36,694 bases of DNA from Lachnospiraceae bacterium (GTDB lineage: Bacteria; Bacillota; Clostridia; Lachnospirales; Lachnospiraceae): positions 1 through 36,694 of the forward strand of contig JAFUXG010000058.1 of NCBI GenBank assembly GCA_017470935.1, in the 5' to 3' direction. Each line of letters starts with the position of its first letter. Position 1 is the stretch's first letter. Positions 6,558-34,905 of the stretch are shown piece after piece. The translations under genes were made by a program, and so were the position numbers. Under the pieces are notes generated by a model. The model saw nothing but the letters and a program-made list of their open reading frames with translations, ran no database searches and was not told where the DNA came from.

Positions 6558-9548
6558 TTACCAGCCTTCCTTTGTTCTATCCCCACCAGAGCCTTCTGCC
6601 ATATTGTATTCAGGAAGCACGATCATCACCTTGAACAGATCCCCGTCAAGCTCCAATGAAAAGTCACCGTTCATGAGCTTTGTCAGATCCCCTGCTATGG
6701 AAAGACCAAGTCCGCTGCCCTCTGTAGTCCTTGAGGAATCACCCCTTGTAAATCTCTCCATAAGCTCATCAGCATTTATATTAAGCTGCGCCCTTGAGAT
6801 ATTCTTCATGGTGAAGCTCACCCTTCCATTCTCATTTACCAGATCGATATAAATGCGTGTGCCCTCCATAGCATATTTATAAGCATTTTGAAGCACATTA
6901 TCAAGGACTCTGAAAAGTCTTCGTCCATCTGCCATGACCATAGCAGCACCCTCAGATATTCTCTCTGCTTCACTCTGTTCCAACGCCTCTCTGTTCTCAG
7001 TATTTGCAGCATTTTTATCAGAAGCCGTATGTGCTCCACTCTTTCTAGCCGGATAGCTTGCCACCACCGTCAGATTCTTCTCTGCAAATTTATCCTCAAA
7101 CTCCCCAAGAGCCTGCTTCACCAGCTCCTCAAAGGACAGGGGCATCATGTTAAGCTCTATATTGCCGGATGTAGCCTTGGCTGCTTCCACCAAGTCCTCT
7201 GTAAGCTGCTGCAGCCTGTGTGCCTTGGAATCTAATACCTCCACATAATGAGCCGCTTCGGGGGTAGGCATCTTCTCCCGCTTTAGCAGATTGATATAAT
7301 TGATAATAGATGTGAGTGGTGTCTTAAGATCATGTGACACATTCGTAATAAGCTCCGTCTTCATGCGCTCGTCCTTAATGGAGGTCTCTACCGCAGTTTT
7401 CAAGCCATCCCCAATGTGACTGACTCCCCTTGCAAGCTCTCTGAAAATAGATGTCCGGCTGTTGATCTCCACCTTTGTATCAAGGTCTCCTTCGGTAATC
7501 CTATGAACACCCTCCTCAAGCTTTTTGATATCAGAGGATATTCTATGCATGGCAGCAATCGTGACCACCCACATGACAGCAAATAATATCTCGCCAAGAA
7601 GCACTGATTCGACCTCTCCCTGTGCTCCTCTATAGCATCGCATAGCTATATATGCAACAAGCCAGATCTCTATTAATATATATGCCGCCGTATAGATCAT
7701 CAGTCTGTCAGCGCTCTTCTTACTCTTAACCCACAGCGTCAGCCTCCTGTAAAGCTTGCGCACATAAATTCTGCTCCTTAGATTATGCGCCTTGATCCTT
7801 CTGGCAAAGCTCAAGGTAAGCTGCATGAATACAAAACCAAAAATGATGGAAGAAAGCACTCCTATCAGAACTGTCCTAAGCTCACCCATACTGCTTATGT
7901 AGCTTAATGCTGTCCTGCCGTTATAATCGTACTCTGTCTGCATGGCAATCCAGACAAACAGCGCTGATGCCCCTATGGAAAGCACATATATAAGAAACCA
8001 CAGCTCTGTGGGAAGCTTATCAAAGCTCCTTAGAACAACCTTTCCAGCAAGCTTATCCTCCCTGCTTTCCCGGCCCGTGGTCATTATAAGATACGCCGCC
8101 TGTATGATCAGCAGCACAAAGCATATAACAGCCCCTGCAATAATATATCTTATATATTCTCCAACAGCCTCATATCCAAGCAGATAGGATGCTGATAAGC
8201 TATGATCTGCAGGGGACAGCTTCGACCTGTCGATCCCAAAATACATCACATGGTCTGTACTGAGCTCATTTAGTTTTGTTTTGATATACTCCGCACCGTG
8301 CAATTCATCGAAGGGCTTTGGATGGGATATCTCATCCTCGTTATCGCCCCATGCGTCATAAGCTATGCCACCGTCGTAATCATCACCCCATTCTACATAG
8401 GATATATCATTCTTAAATTCCACAATCTCCTGTGCACTATTAACATTGGAATAAATGGTCTTATTCTCCCCGCCAATCTCAATGTAATACACAAAGGCAC
8501 TATCCTGCCGTATTTCCAGTTCCCTGCTTGCTTCTTCAGTATCCACATAGGAAGCTGATACATCCTCCCATACATCAGACAGGTTCCTGCTCCACAAAAG
8601 AGGGAAAATTATGCTGCCCACATCCTCACCAATGTCTGAATGTGAATCAATCTCAGACTTAACCTCATCAACATCATACATATAATAATCGTAAGGGGAG
8701 AAATAATCATCCCAGGTGGAATAGAACACATTTGTCTCCGGATCGTACACCGCATACTTAAGTGTTGACAGATTAGGAAGACCCTCTGCATTCAGAATAA
8801 TGTTGATAGCTGAAGCATCATCACTTATGTCCAGATCATAATTAATGGAAGATCCCTCATCCCCATTTATCTTCAAATATCCCGAATTATCATCCTTTGT
8901 ACCATTATTCTTTTTGGTCCCATTTAATGCCTTCATCACATCCGAATCCATGTAAATGAAATAGGCAGACTCAGAGAACTTATCTGAAAACCGAAGGTCT
9001 GTATTCTTTATGCCGTTTTGCGTAAAAATGCGGATAAATGCCTCACTGTCAAAATACAGATAACAGCTGCTGTCACCAGAAAGCTTCTCAATATAATCGG
9101 AGATATATTCGTAATCATATACGCTGCCAAGCAAATCCTTTCCTGAGGTCACATAGTCCTTAATATCCATGGTATTATCGATATAATCAATACCATTCCG
9201 TCTCATAACCTCTATATCGTAGCTGTTGATAACGCCCTTTCCCGCATCGATTATCTGAAACTCCTGTCTGCTGCTGTTCTTCTCCACATCCCTGACGCAG
9301 CCTGCGATCTCTGCCGCCTCATCACCGATCTTATTCAGAAGCTTACTAGAGCTATAGAAATCATAATCCTTGTCAGTAAGTATCCTTGCTCCAAATTCCT
9401 CAAACACATACCCCGCAAGGCCTAAAAACAGCATAAAAAGCATGAATGTGAGCATACAAAGAATGCCTCTCACCCATTTCCCGGCTCTCGTGTATGCCCA
9501 CTGTCCCTTTACCTTTACTGTATTTTCCTCCTCAACGCCTTTTCCCAT
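6558..9548 (-). CDS. large multi-pass sensor histidine kinase
   Basis: The product is 996 aa. A membrane helix at about 27-48 is followed by a 415-residue extracellular domain with no recognised fold, rich in Asp, Ser and Tyr. Five further helices follow (about 466-488, 513-535, 556-580, 613-635, 646-668), then a HAMP-like linker, a HisKA domain with the phosphorylated H739 in NVSHDLKTPL, and an ATPase domain with the N box NVLQNAYKYA and G box GSGLGLSIA. A hydrophilic insertion of about 35 residues (near 850-885) precedes the N box. It lies 31 bp downstream of the OmpR-type regulator, so the two form one operon. The kinase core resembles VanS-type kinases; the membrane part is far larger, suggesting sensing at the cell envelope. 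Ligand unknown. Confidence 0.9.
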   Translation of the reverse strand: MGKGVEEENTVKVKGQWAYTRAGKWVRGILCMLTFMLFMLFLGLAGYVFEEFGARILTDKDYDFYSSSKLLNKIGDEAAEIAGCVRDVEKNSSRQEFQIIDAGKGVINSYDIEVMRRNGIDYIDNTMDIKDYVTSGKDLLGSVYDYEYISDYIEKLSGDSSCYLYFDSEAFIRIFTQNGIKNTDLRFSDKFSESAYFIYMDSDVMKALNGTKKNNGTKDDNSGYLKINGDEGSSINYDLDISDDASAINIILNAEGLPNLSTLKYAVYDPETNVFYSTWDDYFSPYDYYMYDVDEVKSEIDSHSDIGEDVGSIIFPLLWSRNLSDVWEDVSASYVDTEEASRELEIRQDSAFVYYIEIGGENKTIYSNVNSAQEIVEFKNDISYVEWGDDYDGGIAYDAWGDNEDEISHPKPFDELHGAEYIKTKLNELSTDHVMYFGIDRSKLSPADHSLSASYLLGYEAVGEYIRYIIAGAVICFVLLIIQAAYLIMTTGRESREDKLAGKVVLRSFDKLPTELWFLIYVLSIGASALFVWIAMQTEYDYNGRTALSYISSMGELRTVLIGVLSSIIFGFVFMQLTLSFARRIKAHNLRSRIYVRKLYRRLTLWVKSKKSADRLMIYTAAYILIEIWLVAYIAMRCYRGAQGEVESVLLGEILFAVMWVVTIAAMHRISSDIKKLEEGVHRITEGDLDTKVEINSRTSIFRELARGVSHIGDGLKTAVETSIKDERMKTELITNVSHDLKTPLTSIINYINLLKREKMPTPEAAHYVEVLDSKAHRLQQLTEDLVEAAKATSGNIELNMMPLSFEELVKQALGEFEDKFAEKNLTVVASYPARKSGAHTASDKNAANTENREALEQSEAERISEGAAMVMADGRRLFRVLDNVLQNAYKYAMEGTRIYIDLVNENGRVSFTMKNISRAQLNINADELMERFTRGDSSRTTEGSGLGLSIAGDLTKLMNGDFSLELDGDLFKVMIVLPEYNMAEGSGGDRTKEGW

Positions 9549-9579
9549 GCTTTCCTCCTATTCCAGTCCCGCATCTTTC

Positions 9580-10269
9580 CTACTTCTTCTCCATGTGGTA
9601 GCCCACGCCCCACATAACCTTGATGTAGTCCGGATTTTTTGGATTGATCTCGATCTTCTCCCTGATCCTTCTTATATGTACCGAAACGATATTATCTGTG
9701 GCATAAGCGTCCTCTCCCCAGATTCTTTCATAAATCTCACCGGAGGAGAACACCTTCCCCGGATTCTCCATAAAAAGCTTAAGTATATTATACTCTGTAG
9801 GTGTAAGCTTCACCGGCTCACCCTCCACCGTCACCAGCTTCTTATCCTTGTCCATTTCTATGGCACCATTTACAAGCACATCCTCATCCTCCTTGTCGAT
9901 ACCGCCAAGGGAGGTATATCTTCTAAGCTGGGACTTGACCCTCGCCACCAGCTCCAGAGGATTAAAGGGCTTTGTCATGTAATCGTCAGCACCCACATTA
10001 AGCCCCAGGATCTTGTCCGTATCCTCAGACTTTGCAGACAGCAGAATTACGGGGATAGAGCTTTTCTCCCTCAGCTCATACAGGGCATGAATACCGTCAA
10101 GCTCCGGCATCATTATATCCAGTATGATCAAATGGATCTCCTCACTCTTCATTATATCAAGTGCCTGGCGCCCGTTATAAGCAGGGATTATTGTGTACCC
10201 CTCCTGCTTCAGATATATGGTAATAGCCTCCACGATTTCCTTATCATCATCGCATACTAAAATGTTCAT
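9580..10269 (-). CDS. OmpR/PhoB-family response regulator
   Basis: The product is 229 aa. The receiver domain (1-115) has the acidic pocket CDDD at 6-9, the phospho-acceptor D51 in LIILDIMMP, the switch residue S78 and the conserved K100 in MTKPFNP. Residues about 130-228 form a winged-helix DNA-binding domain, with KLTPTEYNILKLFMENPGKV and the recognition region TDNIVSVHIRRIREKI. It is closest in style to VanR-like regulators of Firmicutes. It is the first gene of the operon with the sensor kinase 31 bp downstream. An AAAGGGGAG ribosome site precedes the ATG. Its upstream region carries copy B of a dispersed palindrome that may contain the promoter or a control site. Confidence 0.93.
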   Translation of the reverse strand: MNILVCDDDKEIVEAITIYLKQEGYTIIPAYNGRQALDIMKSEEIHLIILDIMMPELDGIHALYELREKSSIPVILLSAKSEDTDKILGLNVGADDYMTKPFNPLELVARVKSQLRRYTSLGGIDKEDEDVLVNGAIEMDKDKKLVTVEGEPVKLTPTEYNILKLFMENPGKVFSSGEIYERIWGEDAYATDNIVSVHIRRIREKIEINPKNPDYIKVMWGVGYHMEKK

Positions 10270-22282: not shown

Positions 22283-22444
22283 ATGGATAAATATTTCTGC
22301 AACCCATGCGGTTACACATATGATCCTGAAAAGGGCGATCCGGAGCATGGCATCGCACCCGGAACAGCTTTCGAAGACATTCCGGACGATTGGCATTGTC
22401 CTATCTGTGGCGTATCTAAGGATATGTTCCAGAAGGTAATCTGA
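22283..22444 (+). CDS. rubredoxin
   Basis: The product is 53 aa: it begins [20 protein letters not shown] and ends [10 protein letters not shown]. The two iron-binding pairs C6-x-x-C9-G and C39-x-x-C42-G, the aromatic YTYDP and the DDWHCPICG block are all as in classical rubredoxins, and length is normal. It holds one Fe(SCys)4 centre and transfers electrons in the cytosol, often to rubrerythrin or other oxygen-defence enzymes in anaerobes. GGGAGGATACAAGA precedes the ATG. It probably shares the transcript of the gene upstream, 91 bp away. Confidence 0.97.
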
Positions 22445-22602: not shown

Positions 22603-22803
22603 TTATATCTGGTGTCTTACCACCTTATATTCATCACCATCCCGGTAATAAGGACATCCCCTAAATCCATTGGACATCAATCTTCCATAGTCATCCTCAT
22701 CCATATTGATATCACACACATACTCTTCATAATCCTCATCATATACAAGATACGCACAGCTATCACATGAGCCGGTATATACTTTATCCTTTTTTGCAGA
22801 CAT
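22603..22803 (-). CDS. DUF6472-like small cysteine protein
   Basis: The product is 66 aa with four cysteines (C13, C16, C30, C50) in the order CDSC...YVC...GCPYYRDGDEY. This matches small Lachnospiraceae proteins annotated DUF6472, which may bind a metal; function is unknown. It follows the dual-receiver gene by 72 bp without an obvious terminator between them, so it may be the last gene of that transcript. AGAGGAA lies before the ATG. Confidence 0.7.
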   Translation of the reverse strand: MSAKKDKVYTGSCDSCAYLVYDEDYEEYVCDINMDEDDYGRLMSNGFRGCPYYRDGDEYKVVRHQI

Positions 22804-22875: not shown

Positions 22876-23640
22876 TTATTTAAGTGTCTTTCTGGATATA
22901 AAAAATTTGTCAAGCTCATCCAAAAGTGCGTCCTTACCGCTTGCCTTAAGCAGATATCCCTGGGGCTTCAACTCCATTACCTTACGCACACTGCCAAGAT
23001 CACTCTTGCCTGTAAGTATAAATACCGGAATACTGTCTGTGCCCGTCTCGCTCTTTAACATCTCCAAAATACTCGGTCCGTCAGCCACCGGCATTTCATA
23101 GTCTAACAAAACCACATCTGCCTTATTCTTGGCAAGCCATGTAATCGCCTGCATACCCGAATTAACAATGGACACTCTGTACTTATCCTTAAGCCATGTA
23201 TATGCCATCTTAAGAAATGTTACATCATCATCCACAATAAGCACTCGCTTCTTACGATTTTCGATCTCCTGCTTATCGGTAAGCTCTCTCATTTTATCCA
23301 TGAACTGGCGCATATCAAGAGGTCTCGTAAAGGAAGCAGCCATATTCTCATAGGGAAGGATCTTGGTGGCCTCCTTAAATTCATCAGGAGATCCAATAAG
23401 AATTACCATTGTGTCCTCCTCGATACTCATATCCTTAAGATACACCACTGTATCCATGTCAACAGCACTGCCCTCATCCATATAGTACAAATATATGTTT
23501 ACCTGGTCTCTAAGCTCACTTATCTTCTGTACATCAGGCGCAGAAAAATATACTCCAAAGCCTGCATTCTTCAAATTTTTCTGAAGTGTCATAGCAATAA
23601 ATGTTTCCTTCTGGCTTATGACCAAAACGTTATTCTCCAT
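22876..23640 (-). CDS. response regulator with receiver-like and receiver domains
   Basis: The product is 254 aa from the ATG at 23640, with GAGGAG 8 nt before it. Residues about 1-118 have a receiver-like fold pattern, but lack the DD pair and the phospho-acceptor motif. Residues about 131-250 are a complete receiver: VDDD, LLDYEMPVADG with the acceptor Asp, ILTGKS with the switch residue, and YLLKAS with the lysine. There is no output domain. It is the last signalling gene of the four-gene operon, 27 bp after the EAL paralogue. A single-receiver output protein may act by protein contact, as in CheY-like systems. Phosphate could come from the HPt domain of the hybrid kinase two genes upstream (inference). 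Confidence 0.8.
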   Translation of the reverse strand: MENNVLVISQKETFIAMTLQKNLKNAGFGVYFSAPDVQKISELRDQVNIYLYYMDEGSAVDMDTVVYLKDMSIEEDTMVILIGSPDEFKEATKILPYENMAASFTRPLDMRQFMDKMRELTDKQEIENRKKRVLIVDDDVTFLKMAYTWLKDKYRVSIVNSGMQAITWLAKNKADVVLLDYEMPVADGPSILEMLKSETGTDSIPVFILTGKSDLGSVRKVMELKPQGYLLKASGKDALLDELDKFFISRKTLK

Positions 23641-23667
23641 AATCAAATCTCCTCATTTAAAATACTT

Positions 23668-25572
23668 TTATCCAAGCGCCCCCTGGGGCTTAGGCTCTGA
23701 CATATAAAAGCCCTGTATATATTCCACATCAAGCATTTTAAGCTTCTCTAACTGCTGCTTTGTCTCAACACCAACTGCAACAACCGGTTTTCTCATTTCA
23801 TGTACCATACGGATACTATTCTCTAATATAATCCTGCCCTGCTCATCAACATCTGAATCCCATAATAATGTCTTATCAAGCTTTATCTCATCAAAATCAA
23901 GGGAGAATACGGAATAAATGTTAGAATACCCCGAACCATAGCCCTCCATTGAGAACTTAAATCCAAATGCCTTACATTCCTCCATTACCATGGACAGATA
24001 TCTATAATCCTCCGCTGCAACTGACTCTGTTATCTCAAGGCTTATCAATGATGGAGAAACACCCTCCTCATTTACAATGCTTTTCACCCTCTCCACAAAA
24101 TGTGGTTGCATACATTGTAACACAGATAGATTCACATTGATATATCTCATTCCCATTTTTTCAGGAATTCCACCCTTGATAAAGCGGCATACATCCCTAA
24201 GCACAAACTCACCCAGTACATCTATCATACCATTTCTCTCCGCCGCCGGTATGAACACCTTAGGCAGCAGCTCACCAAGCTTTGGATCTCTTAATCTTAG
24301 CAGCGCCTCAGCAGAATGTACCTCTTCGCTTTTGGTATTATACACCATTTGATAGAAAACTTCAAAATTATGTTCTGAAAGACCGTCCCGTATAGCCCTT
24401 TCTATACCTGCCCTGTCATAAAATTCGTACAGAGCATCGCCCTTCATGACTTTGCCGCTCTCAAGTCTTTTGAATTCCATTTCGCAAAGAAGCAATAACT
24501 CACGGACTGATGAAATATCCTCGGATGCGTCTACCTCCATAACAACTCCGGCAATACGTTCATCCTTTTGGGGAAGATTGAGGCCATCATTATACAACGC
24601 ATTTACCTTGGCTGCAAGATTATCTACATAAGCCGTGTCCCGGTTAATGGCAAGAACAACAAAGCAGGATGGAGTTACCCTATAGGAAGTAAATCTAAGA
24701 GGCACTGACTTGATTCCTGCTGCTAACGACCTTACCACATCGTTAATATCATATGCATCCGGCATTTTCTGATAGGTCTCATAATTTGTAAGCTTTAAGA
24801 TCACTGCATGAAAACGGCTGTGTGTATCATAATAATAATTGGTATCCTGTATAAATGCATTTCGGTTAAACAGTCTTGTCACCGGATCTACCCTGTCATC
24901 CTCGTATTCCACTGAAAGCATCACTCCAAGGAAGTTAAGAGCCTCAAAGAAAAGCTCCACCTCTAATTTGGGCAGCAGGTATTGAAGCAGAACGCCCAAT
25001 AAAGACATACCAAAGGAAACAATTATCAATATCTTTCTCTTTCTTGTTGCGGCATACCACCTGAATAGAAGATAATACAGTGCAATGAAATAATACATTA
25101 TGCCTACTACATACAGCACCGTTTCGGCAGAACCTCTCTGAAAATGAAATGAGGCATCATAGCTCCATGTCCAGTGATTAATAGGATTTGTCAGCACAAA
25201 CACCTCAGAAATCATCCAGGGAATAAGATAAAGGATCTGCTTAATATGTCCCATCCTTGCAAAGGACTGTGTGGCAAAAAAAGCATAGTAACACAGAAAC
25301 ATGGGCATCATGTTATGAAAAGTAAAATATATATAATTGGACATATAAAGTGAGCGCCTTGCAGAAATAAATTCAACAGCATATGGCTCCGAATATACAT
25401 ATACCATTTCACTCACGGCAGTTATTACATTGACCCACAATGCAAGAAGATATATTTTGGTCTGGGGCTTTTCAAAATTTTTCTGTATTCCTGTATAGAT
25501 AAGACAGGACAAGGATACAAAAATCGCACCCAGATAAAACGCCGAACGATTAATAAATTCTATTATCTCCAT
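23668..25572 (-). CDS. 7TM protein with degenerate GGDEF and EAL domains
   Basis: The product is 634 aa. Seven hydrophobic helices cover about residues 10-220; they are followed by a linker EYEDDRVDPVTRLFNRNAF and a GGDEF-like domain without the GGDEF signature (about 230-370). The EAL domain (about 385-630) keeps AEALLRLRD, NVNLSV, LEITES, IKLDK and GVETKQQ. The metal-binding DDFGTG is changed to MEGYGSG (M542-E543), so hydrolysis of cyclic-di-GMP is probably lost and the domain may bind the nucleotide or a protein. The N-terminal half is a clear paralogue of the hybrid kinase immediately upstream, 12 bp away. AGGAGG precedes the ATG. Confidence 0.85.
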   Translation of the reverse strand: MEIIEFINRSAFYLGAIFVSLSCLIYTGIQKNFEKPQTKIYLLALWVNVITAVSEMVYVYSEPYAVEFISARRSLYMSNYIYFTFHNMMPMFLCYYAFFATQSFARMGHIKQILYLIPWMISEVFVLTNPINHWTWSYDASFHFQRGSAETVLYVVGIMYYFIALYYLLFRWYAATRKRKILIIVSFGMSLLGVLLQYLLPKLEVELFFEALNFLGVMLSVEYEDDRVDPVTRLFNRNAFIQDTNYYYDTHSRFHAVILKLTNYETYQKMPDAYDINDVVRSLAAGIKSVPLRFTSYRVTPSCFVVLAINRDTAYVDNLAAKVNALYNDGLNLPQKDERIAGVVMEVDASEDISSVRELLLLCEMEFKRLESGKVMKGDALYEFYDRAGIERAIRDGLSEHNFEVFYQMVYNTKSEEVHSAEALLRLRDPKLGELLPKVFIPAAERNGMIDVLGEFVLRDVCRFIKGGIPEKMGMRYINVNLSVLQCMQPHFVERVKSIVNEEGVSPSLISLEITESVAAEDYRYLSMVMEECKAFGFKFSMEGYGSGYSNIYSVFSLDFDEIKLDKTLLWDSDVDEQGRIILENSIRMVHEMRKPVVAVGVETKQQLEKLKMLDVEYIQGFYMSEPKPQGALG

Positions 25573-25584
25573 CTCATCCTCCTA

Positions 25585-28500
25585 TTATAGTTCCGCAAGG
25601 CATGCATTTACCGTATCCCAGTCAAGAGCTTCCACAGCTGCATGGATTCTTTCCAATCGTTCCTTTTCCTCATTAGAAACTCTATATTGCTTCAACTCAT
25701 TAAGAACAAAAACCGCATCCTCATAATCCATCATTGCCGCAAACTGTGAAAGAGTATTATATGCATCCCTTAACATATCATCACTTATATCTGAAAGCTC
25801 CTCCTCCGAAGGCTCATCACCATTATCAGAAAAGAGACCTTTAAGCCTTCCTCCAAGCTCTCTGAAATCCTTCAATAATCCCTCAGTATTTGCCTTAATA
25901 AGCTCCACATTCTTCTCATTACCTGCCTTCTCCAGCTCCATGGCTCTCTCAGATATATCCATGGCACCTACAAGCTTTGATGTACTCTTTAATGAATGAA
26001 CCTGAATAGTATAATTCTCATAATCCTCTTCATTATAAAATTGTTCAATATCATCAGCCTTCTGATCCACAGACTCTGTGTAGATTTCAAGAACCTCAAG
26101 GTAGCCGTCAACAGACCCGCAAAAGCCTACACCCTGCTCCACATCAAGCCCTGCCTTCTCTTTTATCTCACCAAGCCTTTCATCCGCGCCATCCTCCTGC
26201 TCCTCCTCATCCTCAGAAAAAGAGCCTAACATGATGACCTCCTCCTGGAGAATAACCTTATCATCAGGAAGATACTTGACAAGCATTTCCTCCAGCTTAC
26301 TGCCATCCACAGGCTTAGTCATATAGTCATCAAAGCCCTCTGCCATGAACTGCTCTCTGGCGCCAGAAAGAGCATTGGCAGTCAGCAGTATTATAGGCGT
26401 ATTCATATTGGGGTGCTCGCTCATGCTGTGCATTATCTTAAGGGTAGTAACGCCATCCATCTCCGGCATTCTGTAATCCAGGAAAATAATGTCATAAGCA
26501 TTAACCGCCGCCAGCTCAAGACATTCCTGGCCGCTTAACGCCGTATCGATCTGAATCCTGGTCTGCTTCAAAAGACTCTTGATAACAGTAAGATTCATCT
26601 CAGTGTCATCCACAATGAGAATATGAGCTCTCGGCGCTATGAACTTCTCGTGATACTGAGGACGGTTCTCCATGCTTTCCTTATACCGCTCCCTTATATC
26701 TCCAATAGGCTTCAGATCTATGGCAGTCTGGGGAATCATTGCAGTAAATGTGGAGCCCTTGCCATATTCACTGCTGACCTGGATTGTGCCGTCCATCAGA
26801 CTAAGCAGATTATTGGTAATGGCAAGTCCAAGACCTGTGCCCTCTACTGCTTTATTCTTCTGCATATCCAGTCCTTTAAATGAGGCGAAGAGCTTATCCT
26901 GATCCTCCTTCTTAATACCCCTTCCTGTATCGGACACCTTGAAAACAAGTCCCACACTGTGGTCAGAGGAGAAGGAGCCCCGAACGGAAAACGTCACAGC
27001 TCCCTTATCCGTATATTTCACTGCGTTATTGAGAATGTTGAGCACCACCTGCCTGATACGAAGCTCATCTCCAAAAAGGCGCTCCGGCAGCTCTTCATCT
27101 ATATCAATTTCAAAATCAAGTCCCTTCTGCTCTGCCTTAATCCTCATCATGTTAATAATGTCATTAAGCATGGAGCTTAAATCATATTCTATGGGAACGA
27201 TCTCCATATTACCCGCTTCAATCTTTGAGAAATCCAGAATATCATTAATAAGTGCAAGCAGGCTCTTGCTGGCGCTCTCTATATCCTTCGCGTAGGAGAG
27301 CACTGCATCATTCCTGCTTTCACGAAGTATCATTTCATTCATTCCCAGTATTGCATTGATAGGGGTCCTGATCTCATGGGACATATTTGCAAGGAAATTA
27401 CTCTTTGCCTCACTGCCGGCCCTTGCCCGCTGCTCGTCCTGCCTTGCAATCTCAGTAACACGAAGTATGGATATAAGCTCATTTTGCGTTACCACCTTAG
27501 AGTAATAATCGGTCTGAAGGTAGTTCACATCAGTATGCTCGATCCACTCCACCTGCTGCCTTGTGGCGGCATTCTTGATAAGTATCTGGAAATGCATATC
27601 CCTTATCATCCTAATGCTGTTTTTAAGAATAGATTTTCCAATCTCTGAAAGCTCCTGCTCTCCAAGCATTCCAGCATCGATATTGACCACGTCAAACCCA
27701 AGATTAGAGAAGGACTGCATATTGGTATAACCTGTGCCAAAGCCTTCAAGGGAAAGCATGAAGCCTCTGTTCCTTAACTCCCTCATAACACCTGAGAGCA
27801 TGTTATACTGCCCGGAATCAGCAGGCTCCGGTATCTCAAAATTAATAGCTGAAGGAGATATCTTATATTTCTCCACAAGCCTGTCCATCATACCGATGAA
27901 ATAGGGCTGGATACACTGCTTTACCGACAGCCCCACACTTATATGTAATACACCAAGCTCCATGGGAATTCCGCTTCCTAAGAACATACACACCTCATCC
28001 AACAGCATATTGGCTATGATCAGATCTATCCCATGCCTTTCCGCCAGAGGAAGGATCTGCTTCTCATCAATAATTCCAAGCTCAGGATCATTCAGACTTA
28101 TCTGCGCCTCTGCTCCGTATATTGACTTATCAAGCATATTATAAATGGGCTGGTACTGCACCTCATAATTATGCTCGGAAATCCCACGGTGAAGGGCATG
28201 CTCTAATGCCACATTATACATGAACTTTGCCAGATCCCTGCCCTCTAAAACCCGTTCCTCCTTGGTCTCAATGAAACGGCTGTCTATGAGCTTAAGAATC
28301 TCAGCCTCACTGTTAAGCTCCTCAGGAACTGCCGCAAGCAGCACCATGGTCTTAAGTCTCACATCAACCCCGCTGCAGTTAAAGCTCTCGTTAAATCTTT
28401 CATATATGACCGTTGCAAGCTCTTCTGCCTCCTGCTTGGTACTGTCATGATATACCAGCACAAAGGAGTTTTCATTTACCCTGTAAATCTCATACCTTGA

Positions 28501-29373
28501 ATGCACCTCACGAAGATATGAAACCACCTCACGAAGAAGACTGTCGTCATCAAAGGAGCCTGTGAGACGCTGCAGTATGTCCCCATTTAAAATGCGCAGA
28601 TATATCATGTTAAAATGTCTGTTCATACGGAAGATATTACGGATGTCCGACTCAAAGGCACTGCGGTTGTAGGTACTTGTGGACTGGTCCAGCCTGTCAT
28701 CCTCCCTCTCCACAACAAGCATGATGACAACAAGCCCCATAGCCTCTGCCACCAGCTCTACAGAAAGATTAATTGCCGCAAGCTGGGTAATGATTCCCGA
28801 CAGGGTGATAATAAAGCTGTATAGAAGCGCCCATCGTCTTCTGTGGTTAACAGCATGCCAGTAAAAGAGCATATTGAAAATTGACAGGGCAAAATAGAAT
28901 ACCGCAACAATATAATTGAAAATCTCTCCCCAATTGCGGTAGAAATTATACTGCTCATCAAAATAGTAGATCCACCCTATTAATGGGTTAAGCACCACCA
29001 TGATCTCCGCAATAATGACCGGAACCATATATGCAATCCTTCTGTTACGGGAGGCTTTATGAATGGCACCTGTCACATTCTGAACATATATGAAGAACAG
29101 AGGCGCCAGCAGCGTATGTGCAAAGAAATCAAGAAATTGAAATGTAAGCATGATAAATGCAAGCAGGCGGTTTCCAACTGCATAGGGCATCATAAGCTTG
29201 TAAACTATTCCACCAACAGCACTTACTATGACATCAAACAAAAGCATAACAAACACCTTTGTCTGGCGTCTGTCCATCCTGTTTTCAACCAGCACAAAGA
29301 TAAGGGTAGCAAAACATATTACTGCCGCAACCATATAAAATGTAGTTTTGTAGATCAACTGATAATCTGCCAT
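25585..29373 (-). CDS. hybrid sensor kinase with pseudo-GGDEF, pseudo-EAL, REC and HPt
   Basis: The product is 1262 aa from the ATG at 29373, which has GGAG 9 nt before it; a TTG five codons upstream is rejected. Domains in order: 7TM (about 1-225), degenerate GGDEF (about 230-370), degenerate EAL (about 380-630), HisKA with H666 in NMSHEIRTP, HATPase with GTGLGLAI, REC with D966 in IFLDYRMPEMDG, and HPt with H1126 in VHSLKSTSK. In the EAL domain the motif EAL is EAQ, the DDFG pair is L542-E543-G, and the late Glu motif is altered, so it cannot be an active phosphodiesterase. All phosphorelay residues are intact. The N-terminal 620 residues are paralogous to the next gene. It is the second gene of the operon. 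It probably senses a membrane or nucleotide signal and passes phosphate to a separate receiver. Confidence 0.9.
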   Translation of the reverse strand: MADYQLIYKTTFYMVAAVICFATLIFVLVENRMDRRQTKVFVMLLFDVIVSAVGGIVYKLMMPYAVGNRLLAFIMLTFQFLDFFAHTLLAPLFFIYVQNVTGAIHKASRNRRIAYMVPVIIAEIMVVLNPLIGWIYYFDEQYNFYRNWGEIFNYIVAVFYFALSIFNMLFYWHAVNHRRRWALLYSFIITLSGIITQLAAINLSVELVAEAMGLVVIMLVVEREDDRLDQSTSTYNRSAFESDIRNIFRMNRHFNMIYLRILNGDILQRLTGSFDDDSLLREVVSYLREVHSRYEIYRVNENSFVLVYHDSTKQEAEELATVIYERFNESFNCSGVDVRLKTMVLLAAVPEELNSEAEILKLIDSRFIETKEERVLEGRDLAKFMYNVALEHALHRGISEHNYEVQYQPIYNMLDKSIYGAEAQISLNDPELGIIDEKQILPLAERHGIDLIIANMLLDEVCMFLGSGIPMELGVLHISVGLSVKQCIQPYFIGMMDRLVEKYKISPSAINFEIPEPADSGQYNMLSGVMRELRNRGFMLSLEGFGTGYTNMQSFSNLGFDVVNIDAGMLGEQELSEIGKSILKNSIRMIRDMHFQILIKNAATRQQVEWIEHTDVNYLQTDYYSKVVTQNELISILRVTEIARQDEQRARAGSEAKSNFLANMSHEIRTPINAILGMNEMILRESRNDAVLSYAKDIESASKSLLALINDILDFSKIEAGNMEIVPIEYDLSSMLNDIINMMRIKAEQKGLDFEIDIDEELPERLFGDELRIRQVVLNILNNAVKYTDKGAVTFSVRGSFSSDHSVGLVFKVSDTGRGIKKEDQDKLFASFKGLDMQKNKAVEGTGLGLAITNNLLSLMDGTIQVSSEYGKGSTFTAMIPQTAIDLKPIGDIRERYKESMENRPQYHEKFIAPRAHILIVDDTEMNLTVIKSLLKQTRIQIDTALSGQECLELAAVNAYDIIFLDYRMPEMDGVTTLKIMHSMSEHPNMNTPIILLTANALSGAREQFMAEGFDDYMTKPVDGSKLEEMLVKYLPDDKVILQEEVIMLGSFSEDEEEQEDGADERLGEIKEKAGLDVEQGVGFCGSVDGYLEVLEIYTESVDQKADDIEQFYNEEDYENYTIQVHSLKSTSKLVGAMDISERAMELEKAGNEKNVELIKANTEGLLKDFRELGGRLKGLFSDNGDEPSEEELSDISDDMLRDAYNTLSQFAAMMDYEDAVFVLNELKQYRVSNEEKERLERIHAAVEALDWDTVNACLAEL

Positions 29374-29394
29374 TACAATTGTCTCCAAATTATA

Positions 29395-31287
29395 TTAGTT
29401 ATAAATGGGTGATTCAAGCCTCTTCTCAAATTCCTCCCTGGGAAGCGGTTTATCAAATAGATACCCCTGTACTATATTACAATCAGTATTCTTTAAAAAC
29501 TCTACCTGCTTCTCAGTCTCAACGCCCTCACATATGACGATACGGTCAAGATCCTTGATCATATGGATAACATTGCCAACAAGATTCTCACTGTGTCCTC
29601 CGTCCTCCAGCTTATCAAAGAAGGACTTGTCAATCTTCACCACATCTACATTAATATCCTTGAGCATGGAAAGGGATGAGTACCCCGTTCCAAAATCATC
29701 TATGGACGTATATATTCCTGCATCATCCATATCATGCACAAATTTCTCTAAAGAATCAAAATCCGAATAACCCGAGGATTCTGTAAGCTCAATTTCAACA
29801 TAGTCAGTATTAATGGCATACCTATTGATTATCTCAAGCACATCCTCTGACAGATGCGGGTTCTTCAGATGAAGCTTAGAGAAGTTCGATGATATCCTCA
29901 CCGGCTGCAAGCCCTCTGACATCCATTTACAAATATCCTTACAAACCTGCTCAAATACAAAGAAATCAAGGTCAATTATCCTTCCCTCACTTTCAAGTAC
30001 AGGTATGAACTCTCCGGGAGAAACCATCTTGCCGTCCCTTATCCATCTCACAAGGGCTTCTGCACCACACAATTTCTTGGTATCTATATTAACCTTAGGC
30101 TGATAATAAACCTTAAATTCACCGTTTTCCAAAGCCTGCTTGAAGCTCTCAAGTATCTTCTTCTCCTCCACCATGTTCTCTACCATGGATTTCTCGTACC
30201 ATGCATAATCTCCGCTCTCAACATTTCTTGTACTGTTAATAGCAAGACTGCAGCAATTCATAACTGCACTTAGGTTATCCTCTTCCATAATGGAATACAT
30301 TCCGCATCTTGAATACATGCGCATAACCTTAAGCTCCTCACCAACATAAAGCTTCAGCTCTAAGGGAGACAGCACCTTGAGTATATAATCCTCCCTCCCC
30401 TTCTTCACAAGCATAAGAAAATTATCGTTGCCTGTCCTTGCCACATACTCATTACGCTCTATAAGCTTGTAAAGATACTGGGCATATTCTCTAAGAAGCT
30501 CGTCGGCTCTGTTATATCCGATCTGCTGGTTAATATACTTGAAATCCTTGATATTCACAAGCATTCCTGTATAATCCTTAAGCCTTCCCCTCTTCTTAAG
30601 CCTTGCCGCCACCTGCTTGATCTTGTCGTCATTGGCTATTTCCGTAAGCTGATCCCTATGCAGCATGTCTCTTGCAATGAGAATAAGGGCGCAGAGGCAC
30701 AGTAAGGCAAATACCGTTATAAGAACAATTATCACATTACGCAGTTCATGAAGCCGTTCCGCAATATCAGAGGTCATAATATCACAGCCCACGATTCCAA
30801 CCACTTCATTATCAGAATTATATATAGGTGCATAAGCGCTGAAAAAATTGCCCCATTTATCCCTTGTAAGGTTGCGGTCACAGCTCACCTGTCCGTTAAA
30901 TGCGGTCTCAATATCAGGCAGCATATCATACTCCTCGCCGCATGCCGCCGGCTCCTTGGGATCTGCATCCACCACAAAGGTGAGCCTGCCGTTCTCCAAA
31001 CGCATGGTATATATGTATTCCAGCATGTGATAATCAGTGTATTTTATAAGCTGTTCAAGCACTGTAAAATATGCGTCATCCGTATTGGATCTGATGGTCT
31101 CAAACATGTCTCCATCGATTTCATTTGCCGCAATCACCGCCAGTCCCATGGCATTATTCTTGCTCTGGTCTATCATCATATTACCCACATTTTGGTAAAT
31201 GACCGCACCCAGCAGAATAAATGAGAGCAGGCTTGCCAATATGATATAAAGGGAATGCCTTTGCTTTAAACGAAATAGGTTATTCAT
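29395..31287 (-). CDS. membrane c-di-GMP phosphodiesterase (Cache-like, degenerate GGDEF, EAL)
   Basis: The product is 630 aa from the ATG at 31287, with GGAGG 8 nt before it; an upstream ATG eight codons earlier is rejected. Two membrane helices flank an extracellular Cache-like sensor (about 40-180) that ends with NEVVGIVGCDI, typical of these domains. The GGDEF-like domain has TGNDNF in place of GGDEF, so it should not make cyclic-di-GMP. The EAL domain (about 370-625) is intact: AEALVRW, SSNFS, IELTES, D530-D531 in IDDFGTGYS, VKIDKSF and CEGVET. It is therefore predicted to hydrolyse cyclic-di-GMP. It is the first gene of the operon, 21 bp before the hybrid kinase. Confidence 0.9.
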   Translation of the reverse strand: MNNLFRLKQRHSLYIILASLLSFILLGAVIYQNVGNMMIDQSKNNAMGLAVIAANEIDGDMFETIRSNTDDAYFTVLEQLIKYTDYHMLEYIYTMRLENGRLTFVVDADPKEPAACGEEYDMLPDIETAFNGQVSCDRNLTRDKWGNFFSAYAPIYNSDNEVVGIVGCDIMTSDIAERLHELRNVIIVLITVFALLCLCALILIARDMLHRDQLTEIANDDKIKQVAARLKKRGRLKDYTGMLVNIKDFKYINQQIGYNRADELLREYAQYLYKLIERNEYVARTGNDNFLMLVKKGREDYILKVLSPLELKLYVGEELKVMRMYSRCGMYSIMEEDNLSAVMNCCSLAINSTRNVESGDYAWYEKSMVENMVEEKKILESFKQALENGEFKVYYQPKVNIDTKKLCGAEALVRWIRDGKMVSPGEFIPVLESEGRIIDLDFFVFEQVCKDICKWMSEGLQPVRISSNFSKLHLKNPHLSEDVLEIINRYAINTDYVEIELTESSGYSDFDSLEKFVHDMDDAGIYTSIDDFGTGYSSLSMLKDINVDVVKIDKSFFDKLEDGGHSENLVGNVIHMIKDLDRIVICEGVETEKQVEFLKNTDCNIVQGYLFDKPLPREEFEKRLESPIYN

Positions 31288-31347
31288 TTGGACATCCTCC
31301 TTTTCCTGCATGATTGCACTTTTTATGCGTATAAAAATACATTTTAT

Positions 31348-31376
31348 ATTATAAACTATGCAGGTGGATATTACAA
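31348..31376 (-). promoter_or_regulatory. promoter of the signalling operon
   Basis: On the minus strand TTGTAA and a perfect TATAAT are separated by 17 bp, followed by a leader of about 54 nt before the ATG at 31287. It sits right behind the metG terminator, so it should drive the four signalling genes. Confidence 0.75.
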
Positions 31377-31385
31377 ATAGAATTT

Positions 31386-31427
31386 AAAAAGCGGATGAAT
31401 ATATGCAGAATGCATATATTCATCCGC
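31386..31427 (-). terminator. terminator of metG
   Basis: A perfect 17-bp stem (GCGGATGAATATATGCA, 31391-31407, with 31411-31427) has a 3-nt loop and is followed on the minus strand by TTTTT. It is 21 bp past the metG stop codon. Confidence 0.92.
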
Positions 31428-31448
31428 CGGCATATCATGCGTCCTATA

Positions 31449-33410
31449 CTAGCGTATCTCTGCTCCGTGGGGCACAGGTGTCTCTGTCGTTACGATAGAC
31501 AGCTTGCCCTCCGCATCCTCTGCACAGAGGATCATTCCTTGGGACTCAACTCCTGCAAGCTTGGCAGGCTTTAGGTTGGTCACAACAACCACCTTCTTGC
31601 CGACCATATCCTCCGGAGAGAACTGGGCTTTGATTCCTGATACAATCTGGCGTACCTCGCTGCCAATCTTCACCTTAGAGCAAAGGAGCTTCTTGGAGTT
31701 CTTGACCTCCTCACAGGCGATGACCTCACCCACCTGAAGCTGTACCTTGTCAAAATCCTCTATTGTGATCTCAGGCTTCTTCTCCGCTATATCAATACCA
31801 GGATTATCATCCACCGGCTCTGATTCAGGCTCCGGCGCTGGTGTCATCTCCTCAACCTTCTTCATTACCTCTTCAAGGTCAAGCCTTGCAAAAAGAATCT
31901 CCGGCGAATCCGTAACCTTGGTTCCTGACTTATATCCGCCAAAACGCACCAGATCATTCACCTTTCTCTTAGGTGCATTTAACTGTGCAAGGATCTTCTC
32001 TGAGGTTTCTGGCATATACGGCTCAAGCAGTGTTGCACCGATAACGATACTCTCAACAAGGTTGTAGAGCACTGTTGCCAGCCTGTCCTTCTTGTCCTCC
32101 TCCTTTGCAAGAGACCAGGGCATTGTCTCATCTATATATTTGTTACATCTCTTAAAGAGGTTGAATATCTCTGTAATTGCATCAGCAACTCTTAGCTTAT
32201 CCATTGCCTGAGAAACGCGGATTCTTGTATCAAGTGCATACTCGATAAGCTCATTATCCACATCCTCGTTAACCTTCTTGTTGTTAACCTCACCCTCGAA
32301 ATACTTGTTGGACATTGATACGGTACGGTTAACAAGGTTACCAAGTGTATTGGCAAGATCTGAATTAAGACGCTCCACCATAAGCTCCCATGAGATCACA
32401 CCATCATTGTCAAATGGCATCTCATGAAGCACAAAATATCTTACTGCATCAACGCCAAAAAGCTCCACAAGATCATCTGCATATATAACATTGCCTCTGG
32501 ACTTGCTCATTTTCCCATCACTCTGAATAAGCCATGGATGTCCGAATACCTGCTTAGGAAGCTCTACGCCAAGTGCCATCAGCATTATAGGCCAGTATAT
32601 GGTATGGAAGCGCAATATATCCTTTCCAATTAAATGAAGATCTGCAGGCCAGTACTTGTCATATAATCTGTCATTTTTTCCATCAACATCATATCCCAGA
32701 CCTGTGATATAGTTAGACAGTGCATCAATCCATACATAAACCACATGGTTAGGATCAAAATCAACAGGGATTCCCCATTTAAATGAGGTACGTGATACAC
32801 AAAGATCCTGAAGTCCCGGCTTTAGGAAATTGTTCATCATCTCATTCTTACGGGACTCAGGCTGAATGAATTCAGGATTATTCTCAATATGTCTGATCAG
32901 CCTGTCCTGATACTTGCTCATCTTGAAGAAGTATGCTTCCTCCTTCGCAGGAGAAACCTCTCTTCCGCAGTCCGGGCATTTACCGTCAACTAACTGGGAC
33001 TCGGTGAAAAATGATTCACATGGTGTACAGTAAAGTCCCTCATACTCGCCCTTGTAAATGTCGCCCTTGTCATACAGCTTCTTGAAAATCTTCTGTACCT
33101 GTCTCTCATGGTCCTCGTCTGTGGTACGGATGAACTTATCATATGAGGTGTTCATCAGATCCCAGATTCTCTGGATCTCCCCTGCAGTCTTGTCCACAAA
33201 CTCCTTAGGTGTAACTCCTGCCTCAGCTGCTTTCTGCTCAATCTTTTGTCCATGCTCGTCAGTTCCTGTCTGGAATCTGACATCAAAGCCTACGAATCTC
33301 TTATAGCGGGCGATACTGTCCGCAAGAACAATCTCGTAGGTGTTACCAATATGCGGTTTCCCTGATGTATAGGCAATCGCAGTGGTAATGTAGTACGGTT
33401 TCTTTGCCAT
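31449..33410 (-). CDS. metG: methionyl-tRNA synthetase
   Basis: The product is 653 aa. The signature PHIGN (19-23) and KMSKS (300-304) mark a class I synthetase. Zinc ligands C128, C131, C145 and C148 form one knuckle. The anticodon-binding helical domain follows, and residues about 550-653 are a C-terminal tRNA-binding (EMAP/Trbp111) domain with VQLQVGEVIACEEVKNSKKL. A linker rich in Pro and Glu (about 520-545) joins the two. It charges tRNA-Met. GGAGGAGAGGAA lies before the ATG. No T-box or S-box leader was found in the 200 bp upstream. Confidence 0.97.
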   Translation of the reverse strand: MAKKPYYITTAIAYTSGKPHIGNTYEIVLADSIARYKRFVGFDVRFQTGTDEHGQKIEQKAAEAGVTPKEFVDKTAGEIQRIWDLMNTSYDKFIRTTDEDHERQVQKIFKKLYDKGDIYKGEYEGLYCTPCESFFTESQLVDGKCPDCGREVSPAKEEAYFFKMSKYQDRLIRHIENNPEFIQPESRKNEMMNNFLKPGLQDLCVSRTSFKWGIPVDFDPNHVVYVWIDALSNYITGLGYDVDGKNDRLYDKYWPADLHLIGKDILRFHTIYWPIMLMALGVELPKQVFGHPWLIQSDGKMSKSRGNVIYADDLVELFGVDAVRYFVLHEMPFDNDGVISWELMVERLNSDLANTLGNLVNRTVSMSNKYFEGEVNNKKVNEDVDNELIEYALDTRIRVSQAMDKLRVADAITEIFNLFKRCNKYIDETMPWSLAKEEDKKDRLATVLYNLVESIVIGATLLEPYMPETSEKILAQLNAPKRKVNDLVRFGGYKSGTKVTDSPEILFARLDLEEVMKKVEEMTPAPEPESEPVDDNPGIDIAEKKPEITIEDFDKVQLQVGEVIACEEVKNSKKLLCSKVKIGSEVRQIVSGIKAQFSPEDMVGKKVVVVTNLKPAKLAGVESQGMILCAEDAEGKLSIVTTETPVPHGAEIR

Positions 33411-33612: not shown

Positions 33613-34905
33613 TCATAGATATTCCGCAAAAGCATATAGTGGCAGGTTCGTAAGCCATTCCTGCTCACGATAGTCGGACATAGATATTCTAACCGCATTA
33701 TCCACTTTATACTTCAGGGCAAACGCCTTGAGACTTTTTGCCTGAAGATTCTCATTAGCCTTTACTTCGATCGGAATTATTTCATTATTTTTTTGTATAA
33801 GAAAATCTATCTCACCCTTTGAATTATCAGCCGAGTAATAATACGGTTTGTAATGGGACACTGATATCATTTGCTGCAACACATATTGTTCAGTTAAAGC
33901 GCCTTTGAATTCGGTAAAAAGAACATTAGCATCCACGAAAGAAGTAACCGGCAATTCTCCAAGTGCTGCCAATAATCCTATATCATTAAAATATATTTTA
34001 AATGCATTCAATTGTTCATATGTTTTCAATGGAATACCGGGCTTTTTAACTCTATGAACAAGATGAATCAAACCGCAGTCAGAAAGCCATTGTATTGCCA
34101 ATTCAAAATCCTTTGCCCTTGCTCCGGGCACAACCTGCCCATATATATATTTTCTGTTTTCCTTAGATAATTGTGCAGGAATAGAATCCCATACCTGATT
34201 AAGTCTTGGAACAAGTGATATGGGAGCATGTTTTGAAAAATCCTGTCTGTAATAGTCCAAAAGGCGCTCCTGAACTTGCCTAACAGAATTGATATCTTTA
34301 TCTTTAACATAGGAAACAACTACTTCGGGCATACCGCCAACAATATAATAAGTTTTCAATTCTTCAATCAAAATACTCTTCATTGATGTAATCAACGAAG
34401 CATCCTTTCCTTTGATAATATCCACAAGCTCTTCTTTACCGCATGCCATCAAATATTCATTAAAATTAAGAGGATATAACTCAAGAGAGTCAACTTTGCC
34501 TACCGGAAACGAAGTCCCCTCATGAAGTGCTACCCCTAAGAGTGAACCGGCCGAAACAATAGCATACTCCGGCTTCTCCTCGCAAAAATACTTAAGTGCG
34601 GACAACGCCCTTGGTTCCTCCTGAATCTCATCCATAATTATTAAGGTTTTTTCCGGAATTATCTTTTCACCTGAAAGTGCACCAAATGCTGTAATCAATC
34701 TTGCCGGATCAAGTCCTCCATCTAATACATCATGTAATCTATGTTCTCTGTCAAAATTGATATAAACCATATTGTCGAAATAAAGTCTCCCAAACTCTTT
34801 CATTATCCAGGTCTTTCCCACCTGTCTTGCCCCTCTAATTGTCAATGGCTTCCTATTTTTAGATTCTTTCCATTTAACCAAATCTTTCATTAAATCACGA
34901 TACAA
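33613..34905 (-). CDS. AAA ATPase with DUF4143 domain
   Basis: The product is 430 aa. Residues 22-31 (TIRGARQVGK) hold the Walker A and LIIMDEIQEE (about 88-97) the Walker B of the AAA_14 family. The C-terminal DUF4143 (about 210-400) includes a restriction-enzyme-like fold with KGEIDFLIQ and IIPIEVKANEN. The start is TTG at 34905, with GGGGG 7 nt before it; the first ATG, at 34890, is 22 nt from the site. Such genes are common accessory genes in gut anaerobes; their function is unknown and they are often placed near mobile DNA. It has its own promoter and terminator. Confidence 0.85.
   Translation of the reverse strand: MYRDLMKDLVKWKESKNRKPLTIRGARQVGKTWIMKEFGRLYFDNMVYINFDREHRLHDVLDGGLDPARLITAFGALSGEKIIPEKTLIIMDEIQEEPRALSALKYFCEEKPEYAIVSAGSLLGVALHEGTSFPVGKVDSLELYPLNFNEYLMACGKEELVDIIKGKDASLITSMKSILIEELKTYYIVGGMPEVVVSYVKDKDINSVRQVQERLLDYYRQDFSKHAPISLVPRLNQVWDSIPAQLSKENRKYIYGQVVPGARAKDFELAIQWLSDCGLIHLVHRVKKPGIPLKTYEQLNAFKIYFNDIGLLAALGELPVTSFVDANVLFTEFKGALTEQYVLQQMISVSHYKPYYYSADNSKGEIDFLIQKNNEIIPIEVKANENLQAKSLKAFALKYKVDNAVRISMSDYREQEWLTNLPLYAFAEYL

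Follow-up and report, generated by a model that had tools for sequence, protein, structure and literature searches.

A hybrid histidine kinase paired with a kinase-less GGDEF-EAL paralogue in Lachnospiraceae as a candidate divided receptor for cyclic di-GMP

The operon and its proteins

We examined a signalling operon from a Lachnospiraceae bacterium (assembly GCA_017470935.1) in which a hybrid histidine kinase (HK) lies next to a kinase-less paralogue of its own N-terminal part (hereafter the twin) and to a protein composed of a putative pseudo-receiver and a receiver (RR), and which is considered here as a candidate receptor system for cyclic di-GMP (c-di-GMP). The operon is located on the minus strand of a 36,694-base stretch of DNA (the window), which constitutes the entire contig JAFUXG010000058.1 of a 3.06 Mb genome (75 contigs, completeness 78%), and sits between metG (31449-33410) and a gene of the DUF6472 family. 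A fourth gene, coding for a phosphodiesterase (gene 1), lies upstream of HK (Table 1). Four minus-strand genes spaced by 12-27 bp had been described in the original prediction, made from the sequence alone; the coordinates, the order and the gaps (21, 12 and 27 bp for gene 1-HK, HK-twin and twin-RR, respectively) hold, and no error was found in its motif readings for any of the four genes.

HK displayed Pfam matches over the cut-off for GGDEF, EAL, HisKA, HATPase_c, REC and Hpt. As had been proposed, its GGDEF and EAL motifs are degenerate. Its kinase, receiver and HPt motifs are intact, and it harbours the HisKA histidine, the HATPase_c domain, the receiver aspartate and the HPt histidine of a hybrid phosphorelay kinase. 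The Pfam family HisKA_7TM (PF16927) scored 16.0 bits in the HK of the window and 26.0 bits in that of a relative (locus L074), the gathering cut-off being 28.6. We placed the start of HK at the ATG at 29373, the listed open reading frame (ORF) beginning at a TTG at 29388.

The twin, rightly described before as a paralogue of HK ending after the pseudo-EAL, has the N-terminal plan of HK and no kinase part. EAL is its only Pfam match, with none to GGDEF; its fold model matches GGDEF-EAL tandem structures. AlphaFold models of the N-terminal parts of twin and HK (mean predicted local distance difference test scores, pLDDT, of 85.9 and 85.3, from 22 and 21 sequences, respectively) both show about seven long helices ahead of the GGDEF-EAL part, with seven hydropathy peaks in HK and six in the twin. 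Both match solved GGDEF-EAL structures, their EAL part superposing on MucR in complex with c-di-GMP at 2.1-2.2 Å. The full catalytic set of an EAL phosphodiesterase, with E352 and D295/D296, is present in neither protein, both being without E352 and D296 (residues scored by alignment to gene 1, in RocR numbering), and the twin combines GGDEF and EAL folds that are both catalytically degenerate, as in receptors of the LapD/FimX type. Against the NCBIfam LapD model it scored 61 bits (cut-off 1020), and it gave no HAMP match, having a helical membrane region instead.

The only Pfam REC match over the cut-off in RR corresponds to its second half. The first half gave no Pfam receiver match; in 11 aligned RR sequences it is without the aspartate pair after the first strand, arginine replaces the lysine (11/11), and D57 is invariant. 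No output domain was found in RR with Pfam.

Gene 1, in which a second in-frame ATG is open at 31311, matched the Pfam GGDEF and EAL models. Every residue of the EAL catalytic set (QP, EALVR, N, ELTE, DDFG, K, EGVE and QG) was found to be present, which bears out the intact phosphodiesterase previously assigned to this gene; its GGDEF is also degenerate (GNDNF in place of the motif), a feature absent from the earlier description.

Table 1. Features of the operon and its flanks in the window
Feature	Position	Strand	Basis
Gene 1, GGDEF'-EAL phosphodiesterase	29395..31287	-	ORF and Pfam; ATG start after AAGGAGG
HK, hybrid histidine kinase 7TM-GGDEF'-EAL'-HisKA-HATPase-REC-HPt, EAL pocket residues lost	25585..29373	-	ORF, Pfam, residue alignment, model
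HK seven-helix membrane region	28708..29367	-	Model helices within residues 3-222; seven hydropathy peaks
HK degenerate GGDEF (NENSF for GGDEF)	28255..28692	-	Pfam and alignment
HK degenerate EAL (EAQIS, SVGLS, LEGFG, NIDAG, IKNAAT)	27496..28197	-	Alignment
HK HisKA phosphoacceptor domain, H-box HEIRTP	27211..27408	-	Pfam and sequence
HK HATPase_c	26725..27072	-	Pfam
HK receiver (LDYRMPEMDG)	26281..26622	-	Pfam and sequence
HK HPt (HSLKS)	25897..26097	-	Pfam and sequence
Twin, kinase-less paralogue 7TM-GGDEF'-EAL'	23668..25572	-	ORF, Pfam EAL, fold model
Twin EAL, pocket residues kept (EALLR, NVNLS, ITE, KLDK, QG); D295 D296 to EG, E352 to V	23692..24399	-	Alignment
RR, putative pseudo-receiver and receiver	22876..23640	-	ORF, Pfam, alignment
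RR true receiver (VDDD, LLDYEMP, LTGK, LLK)	22912..23244	-	Pfam and alignment
Terminator-like hairpin, 18 pairs, between metG and operon	31390..31428	-	Site scan
Promoter-like site TTGTAA-17-TATAAT, 10/12 match	31348..31376	-	Site scan; such matches common in region
DUF6472 gene, possibly co-transcribed	22603..22803	-	Pfam; 72 bp after RR, same strand

Conservation of the core and origin of the pairing

The neighbours of RR relatives were surveyed in the best 80 of at least 434 relatives found by a scan, a kinase being counted if it lay no more than three genes ahead of RR or two genes after it. These loci belong mostly to ruminant-gut Lachnospiraceae and Butyrivibrio, with one Clostridiales and one Clostridia. 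A kinase of seven-transmembrane (7TM)-GGDEF-EAL architecture was found in 35 loci, another kinase in 33, and no kinase within the span in 12, six of which have less than 2 kb before RR. The RR-type protein is a general kinase partner, with a kinase nearby in 68 of the 80 loci, 33 of them without 7TM-GGDEF-EAL. The kinase-less paralogue adjoins the kinase in 29 of the 35 loci of this architecture, and in two of the remaining six (L139 and L158) the contig stops right after RR. The impression that the architecture is unusual has to be tempered by this recurrence, as it is not unique to the window.

The order HK-twin-RR was found in six of 26 genomes of the genus, the L069 contig stopping within RR, and also in L096, L097 and L098; L085 has HK-twin with no RR adjoining. 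Gene 1 was upstream of the kinase in just two of the ten operons, i.e. those of the window and L069, which rules out a conserved four-gene operon. Conservation of gene order thus applies to HK-twin-RR but not to the set of four: the conserved core comprises HK, twin and RR, and gene 1 is accessory, without conservation in the operon. No shared downstream gene was seen for this arrangement in the two loci Pfam-searched downstream, DUF6472 being found in the window and EamA and AI-2E family transporters in L097.

Four arrangements can be distinguished. Type I (HK-twin-RR) comprises the window, L069-L073, L096-L098 and, as HK-twin, L085. Type II (HK-RR-twin) comprises 21 loci, all from Butyrivibrio, and type III (HK'-twin-HK-RR) comprises L108, L115 and L126. 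Type IV consists of 14 kinases for which no twin was seen nearby, nine beside RR and five not, and a type II-like kinase with no adjoining twin occurs in L086. In type I, the stop of HK and the start of the twin overlap by 4 bp in L085, L096, L097 and L098 and are 1 bp apart in L069, L071 and L072 (7/10 overall), the gap being 12 bp in the window and longer in L070 and L073; these junctions are compatible with coupled translation.

Some loci carry additional genes. Second kinases of the same architecture (L070:8534-11674 and L073:13525-16710), with the EAL pocket kept and too short for an HPt, are convergent with the paired operon and lie directly after its RR; a kinase with a twin and one without thus coexist in the same genome. 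The upstream kinase of type III is shorter, with no receiver motif by pattern and with D296 replaced by S (L108, L115 and L126). A related protein of about 407-424 aa is encoded directly upstream of HK in 19 of the 21 type II loci (e.g. L102, L112, L116, L118, L124, L127, L128 and L131); that of L128, the one searched, harbours an HDOD domain, and its identification as EAL-HDOD was discarded, the first half aligning weakly to EAL (probability 2.6%).

Wider searches, in which only the three or four best candidates per genome were scored, placed the fused architecture only in Lachnospiraceae among the genomes sampled. Across 398 phylum genomes (E <= 1e-55, three candidates each), frames above 1000 aa were found only in the family of the window (G000 and G205), the matching frames outside it (646-703 aa) leaving no room for a kinase. 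Among 397 family genomes, 11 matched the N-terminal part at E <= 1e-100, six of these in a frame above 1000 aa. More distant fused frames of about 1270 aa, 27-29% identical to the twin, occur in G936 and G1008.

Trees were obtained from 104 rows, followed by a careful tree from 66 of them. L093, L094, L109 and L153 were omitted as second copies of L073, L071, L074 and L087, respectively, together with proteins shorter than 600 aa or with fewer than 550 matched residues (including the truncated L127 twin) and L084, interrupted by a contig end; L089 and L183 have the same sequence. The twins of types I and III form one clade (99/94 in the 66-row tree), which rules out that the type I twin was recently duplicated from the HK beside it. 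Type II twins are sister to type II kinases (100/100), and were possibly copied from a kinase within the Butyrivibrio-type line. A single origin of all twins was rejected, the log-likelihood being 152.8 lower when 21 twins were forced together (approximately unbiased, AU, test, p = 3.3e-21), in a test that was run after the tree was seen and whose outcome may be affected by long branches and gene conversion. Because the single clade is rejected, the kinase-less partner appears to have been gained on two or more occasions, provided that gene conversion has not distorted the tree. One twin was used as the query against five genomes with twinless kinases (G112, G002, G205, G167 and G169), together with G260 and G331 but without the genomes of L113, L139, L158 and L164; those of the close hits that were placed on the tree lay outside the twin clade, except for the known twin of G331.

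EAL pocket residues and a possible division of sensing and signalling

Among the residues scored, E268, K316 and Q372 have roles in the EAL site. The RocR numbers and the roles of the other residues follow PMC7911125 and PMC12943098. R179 and Q161 have been named as substrate-binding residues (PMC7911125), and a second EAL protein became inactive when the first glutamate of ExxE (E352 of RocR) was replaced by alanine (PMC12943098). In the ten type I twins, with a mean pairwise identity of 46%, Q161, E175, R179, N233, E265, E268, K316 and Q372 are each kept in 10/10, D296 and E352 in none and D295 in one. In the ten type I kinases, N233, K316, D296 and E352 are all absent (0/10) and R179 is kept in one, Q161 being kept in nine, D295 in eight, and E175 and E265 in all ten. 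Their H-box, G1 and receiver motifs are present in 10/10 each, G2 in nine, the N-box in eight and the HPt in nine, since the kinase of L085 ends before the HPt. With its pocket kept and D296 and E352 lost, the type I twin therefore looks like a receptor that binds without cleaving, and the type I kinase, with N233 and K316 lost in all and R179 in nine, seems incapable of binding in the normal manner. The earlier view of two equivalent pseudoenzymes both binding c-di-GMP does not agree with these patterns, as the pocket residues are kept in the twin only.

The same residues bear on an alternative in which the twin is still partly active as a phosphodiesterase, or has a different cyclic nucleotide as its substrate or ligand, the operon acting with gene 1 mainly to lower c-di-GMP. 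The complete EAL of gene 1 and the EAL fold of the twin, intact in the model, are in its favour, but E352 and D296 are missing from all ten type I twins, D295 from nine, and gene 1 from eight of the ten operons, and we regard it as very unlikely.

Type IV kinases, which form the sister group of type I kinases, keep the binding residues in 14/14, E352 being lost in 14/14 and D295 in two. In the nearest clade, all seven free-standing members have complete sites, and the same holds for ten more distant rows (one sequence being present twice); L141 and L159, free-standing relatives in RR loci, are degenerate.

The apparent loss of the pocket in HK and its apparent retention in the twin suggest a sharing of tasks, one partner sensing and the other signalling. 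Because type I twins keep the pocket, type I kinases lose it and twinless type IV kinases keep it, we tentatively favour, as a real possibility still short of an even chance, a core whose three genes encode a membrane phosphorelay in which the receptor is divided. The EAL of the twin would bind c-di-GMP (or a close relative) without cleavage, the EAL of HK no longer binding, and twin and HK would form a heteromer through their common 7TM-GGDEF-EAL parts, in which the twin would set HK activity. HK would then phosphorylate its own receiver and its HPt would hand the phosphate to the true receiver of RR, which may act as a free-standing adaptor. In operons with gene 1, its product would lower c-di-GMP as an accessory input. 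This bacterium probably makes c-di-GMP, because an intact GGDEF motif is found at 16 of the 30 GGDEF places in its genome. The recurrence of the kinase-less paralogue beside the kinase, the separate origins of the twins, the tight type I junctions and the match of both models to GGDEF-EAL structures also speak for this reading.

The divided receptor accounts for types I and IV. Its wider formulation is that of a split second-messenger receptor kinase, in which the kinase would read c-di-GMP only via a pocket-bearing kinase-less paralogue, these functions being joined in one chain in relatives, the partner gained more than once in Lachnospiraceae and the pocket of the pair lost in Butyrivibrio; we consider this possible, if rather doubtful.

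Several observations weigh against the divided receptor. In type II kinases, Q161 and R179 are absent (0/21 each), K316 being kept in 18/21, and in type II twins R179 is kept in 2/20, N233 in 1/20 and K316 in 0/20 (20 of 21 scored); with neither pocket left, type II is unexplained and the division is not general. In type III the HK linked to RR is complete (3/3) although a twin is present, which shows that a twin is able to stand beside a complete kinase; this twin reads KAL, to be compared with KVL in LapD, and keeps R179, N233, K316 and E352. The kinase of L086 has lost Q161, N233, K316 and E352 without an adjoining twin, and no close twin was found in its genome (83% complete). Four of the 14 type IV kinases (L076, L080, L139 and L158) stop at the end of a contig or shortly ahead of it, where a downstream twin could escape notice, and five (L078, L079, L080 and the second kinases of L070 and L073) belong to genomes with a type I twin elsewhere, which in L070 and L073 is that of the next operon. 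The correlation between the distances of HK and twin (r = 0.96, n = 10; r = 0.92, n = 20; 0/5000 permutations each), which in itself speaks for the pair, reflects inheritance as a unit and no more, being expected of any vertically inherited operon. Finally, the presence of the twin and the loss of the pocket provide only two independent contrasts on the tree (p = 1), and their association therefore has no statistical weight.

Type II is better covered by an alternative in which neither EAL needs a ligand. The GGDEF'-EAL' part would serve for dimerisation and signal transmission beneath a 7TM sensor, and the twin, as a regulatory subunit lacking a kinase, would compete for HK dimers or contribute a 7TM signal of its own. 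Type II pairs have lost both pockets, but 21 loci retain the pair, and the kinase motifs are intact in 21/21. It leaves unexplained, however, the eight pocket residues unchanged in all ten type I twins at their level of identity, and the pocket kept in all 14 kinases of the sister group, and we give it only hesitant credence.

The contact between HK and twin is inferred, and in a further alternative the twin would be a c-di-GMP receptor with a separate target, sharing only a transcript with HK without touching it; the target of LapD is a protease rather than a kinase (PMC3032553). Twin and kinase have, however, been brought together more than once, and their junctions are tight or overlapping in 7/10 type I operons, which make a separate target unlikely.

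Known systems and neighbouring features

Kinases that act as c-di-GMP receptors (SgmT, ShkA and RavS) and degenerate GGDEF-EAL receptors (LapD and FimX) are established separately. ShkA is a hybrid kinase, and RetS and GacS form a heterodimer with kinase domains in both partners, encoded in different operons; the latter pair is not known to have a cyclic-nucleotide domain. SgmT of the SgmT-DigR system of Myxococcus xanthus is, like HK, a hybrid kinase, whose GGDEF is a c-di-GMP receptor; unlike HK, it is composed of GAF, kinase, receiver and C-terminal GGDEF domains, the abstract naming no EAL, 7TM or kinase-less twin, and DigR binds DNA (PMC3509222). ShkA-TacA of Caulobacter resembles the present system in a kinase set by c-di-GMP through a pseudo-domain, but the ligand binds a pseudo-receiver inside the kinase, with no EAL or twin described there (PMC7010744). 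RavS-RavR of Xanthomonas also involves c-di-GMP acting on a histidine kinase and an EAL protein in the same pathway, although the ligand is placed at the kinase catalytic region and the EAL within the response regulator (PMC6707612). RetS-GacS shares the control of a sensor kinase by another, related protein (PMC4866733).

The closest parallel to the prediction for the twin is LapD, which like FimX has degenerate GGDEF and EAL domains and whose EAL binds without catalysis (PMC3032553, PMC3527489). LapD binds c-di-GMP with a degenerate EAL (KVL), an arginine just downstream being at the centre of the site; it differs from the twin in its HAMP and periplasmic output domains, and the passages cited mention no histidine kinase partner (PMC3032553). 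No 7TM-GGDEF-EAL-kinase architecture was recognised in the open-licence literature, judged from the titles and abstract starts of the best matches, nor was any paper joining Butyrivibrio, the EAL domain, GGDEF and a histidine kinase found among 5.39 million of that literature. Here both kinds of receptor are fused in one chain, a kinase-less partner is kept alongside, and the residue pattern tells which of them should bind. If true, the division would constitute a receptor heteromer in bacteria, one subunit of which binds while the other signals. The natural series formed by kinases with no twin in sight, with a binding twin, and with both pockets lost makes the divided receptor directly testable, and the system points to second-messenger phosphorelays in ruminant-gut bacteria, where little seems to have been published.

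A single strong promoter had been proposed for the operon. A promoter-like site does lie ahead of gene 1 (Table 1), but such sites are frequent (44 in the 12 kb scanned vs 33.6 +/- 5.8 in shuffles), and the promoter is therefore only plausible. Elsewhere in the window, a rubredoxin gene (22283-22444) faces the DUF6472 gene, an AAA_14/DUF4143 ATPase gene (33613-34905) lies upstream of metG, and a second two-component pair, formed by a HisKA kinase and a regulator that carries Trans_reg_C, is found at 6558-10269.

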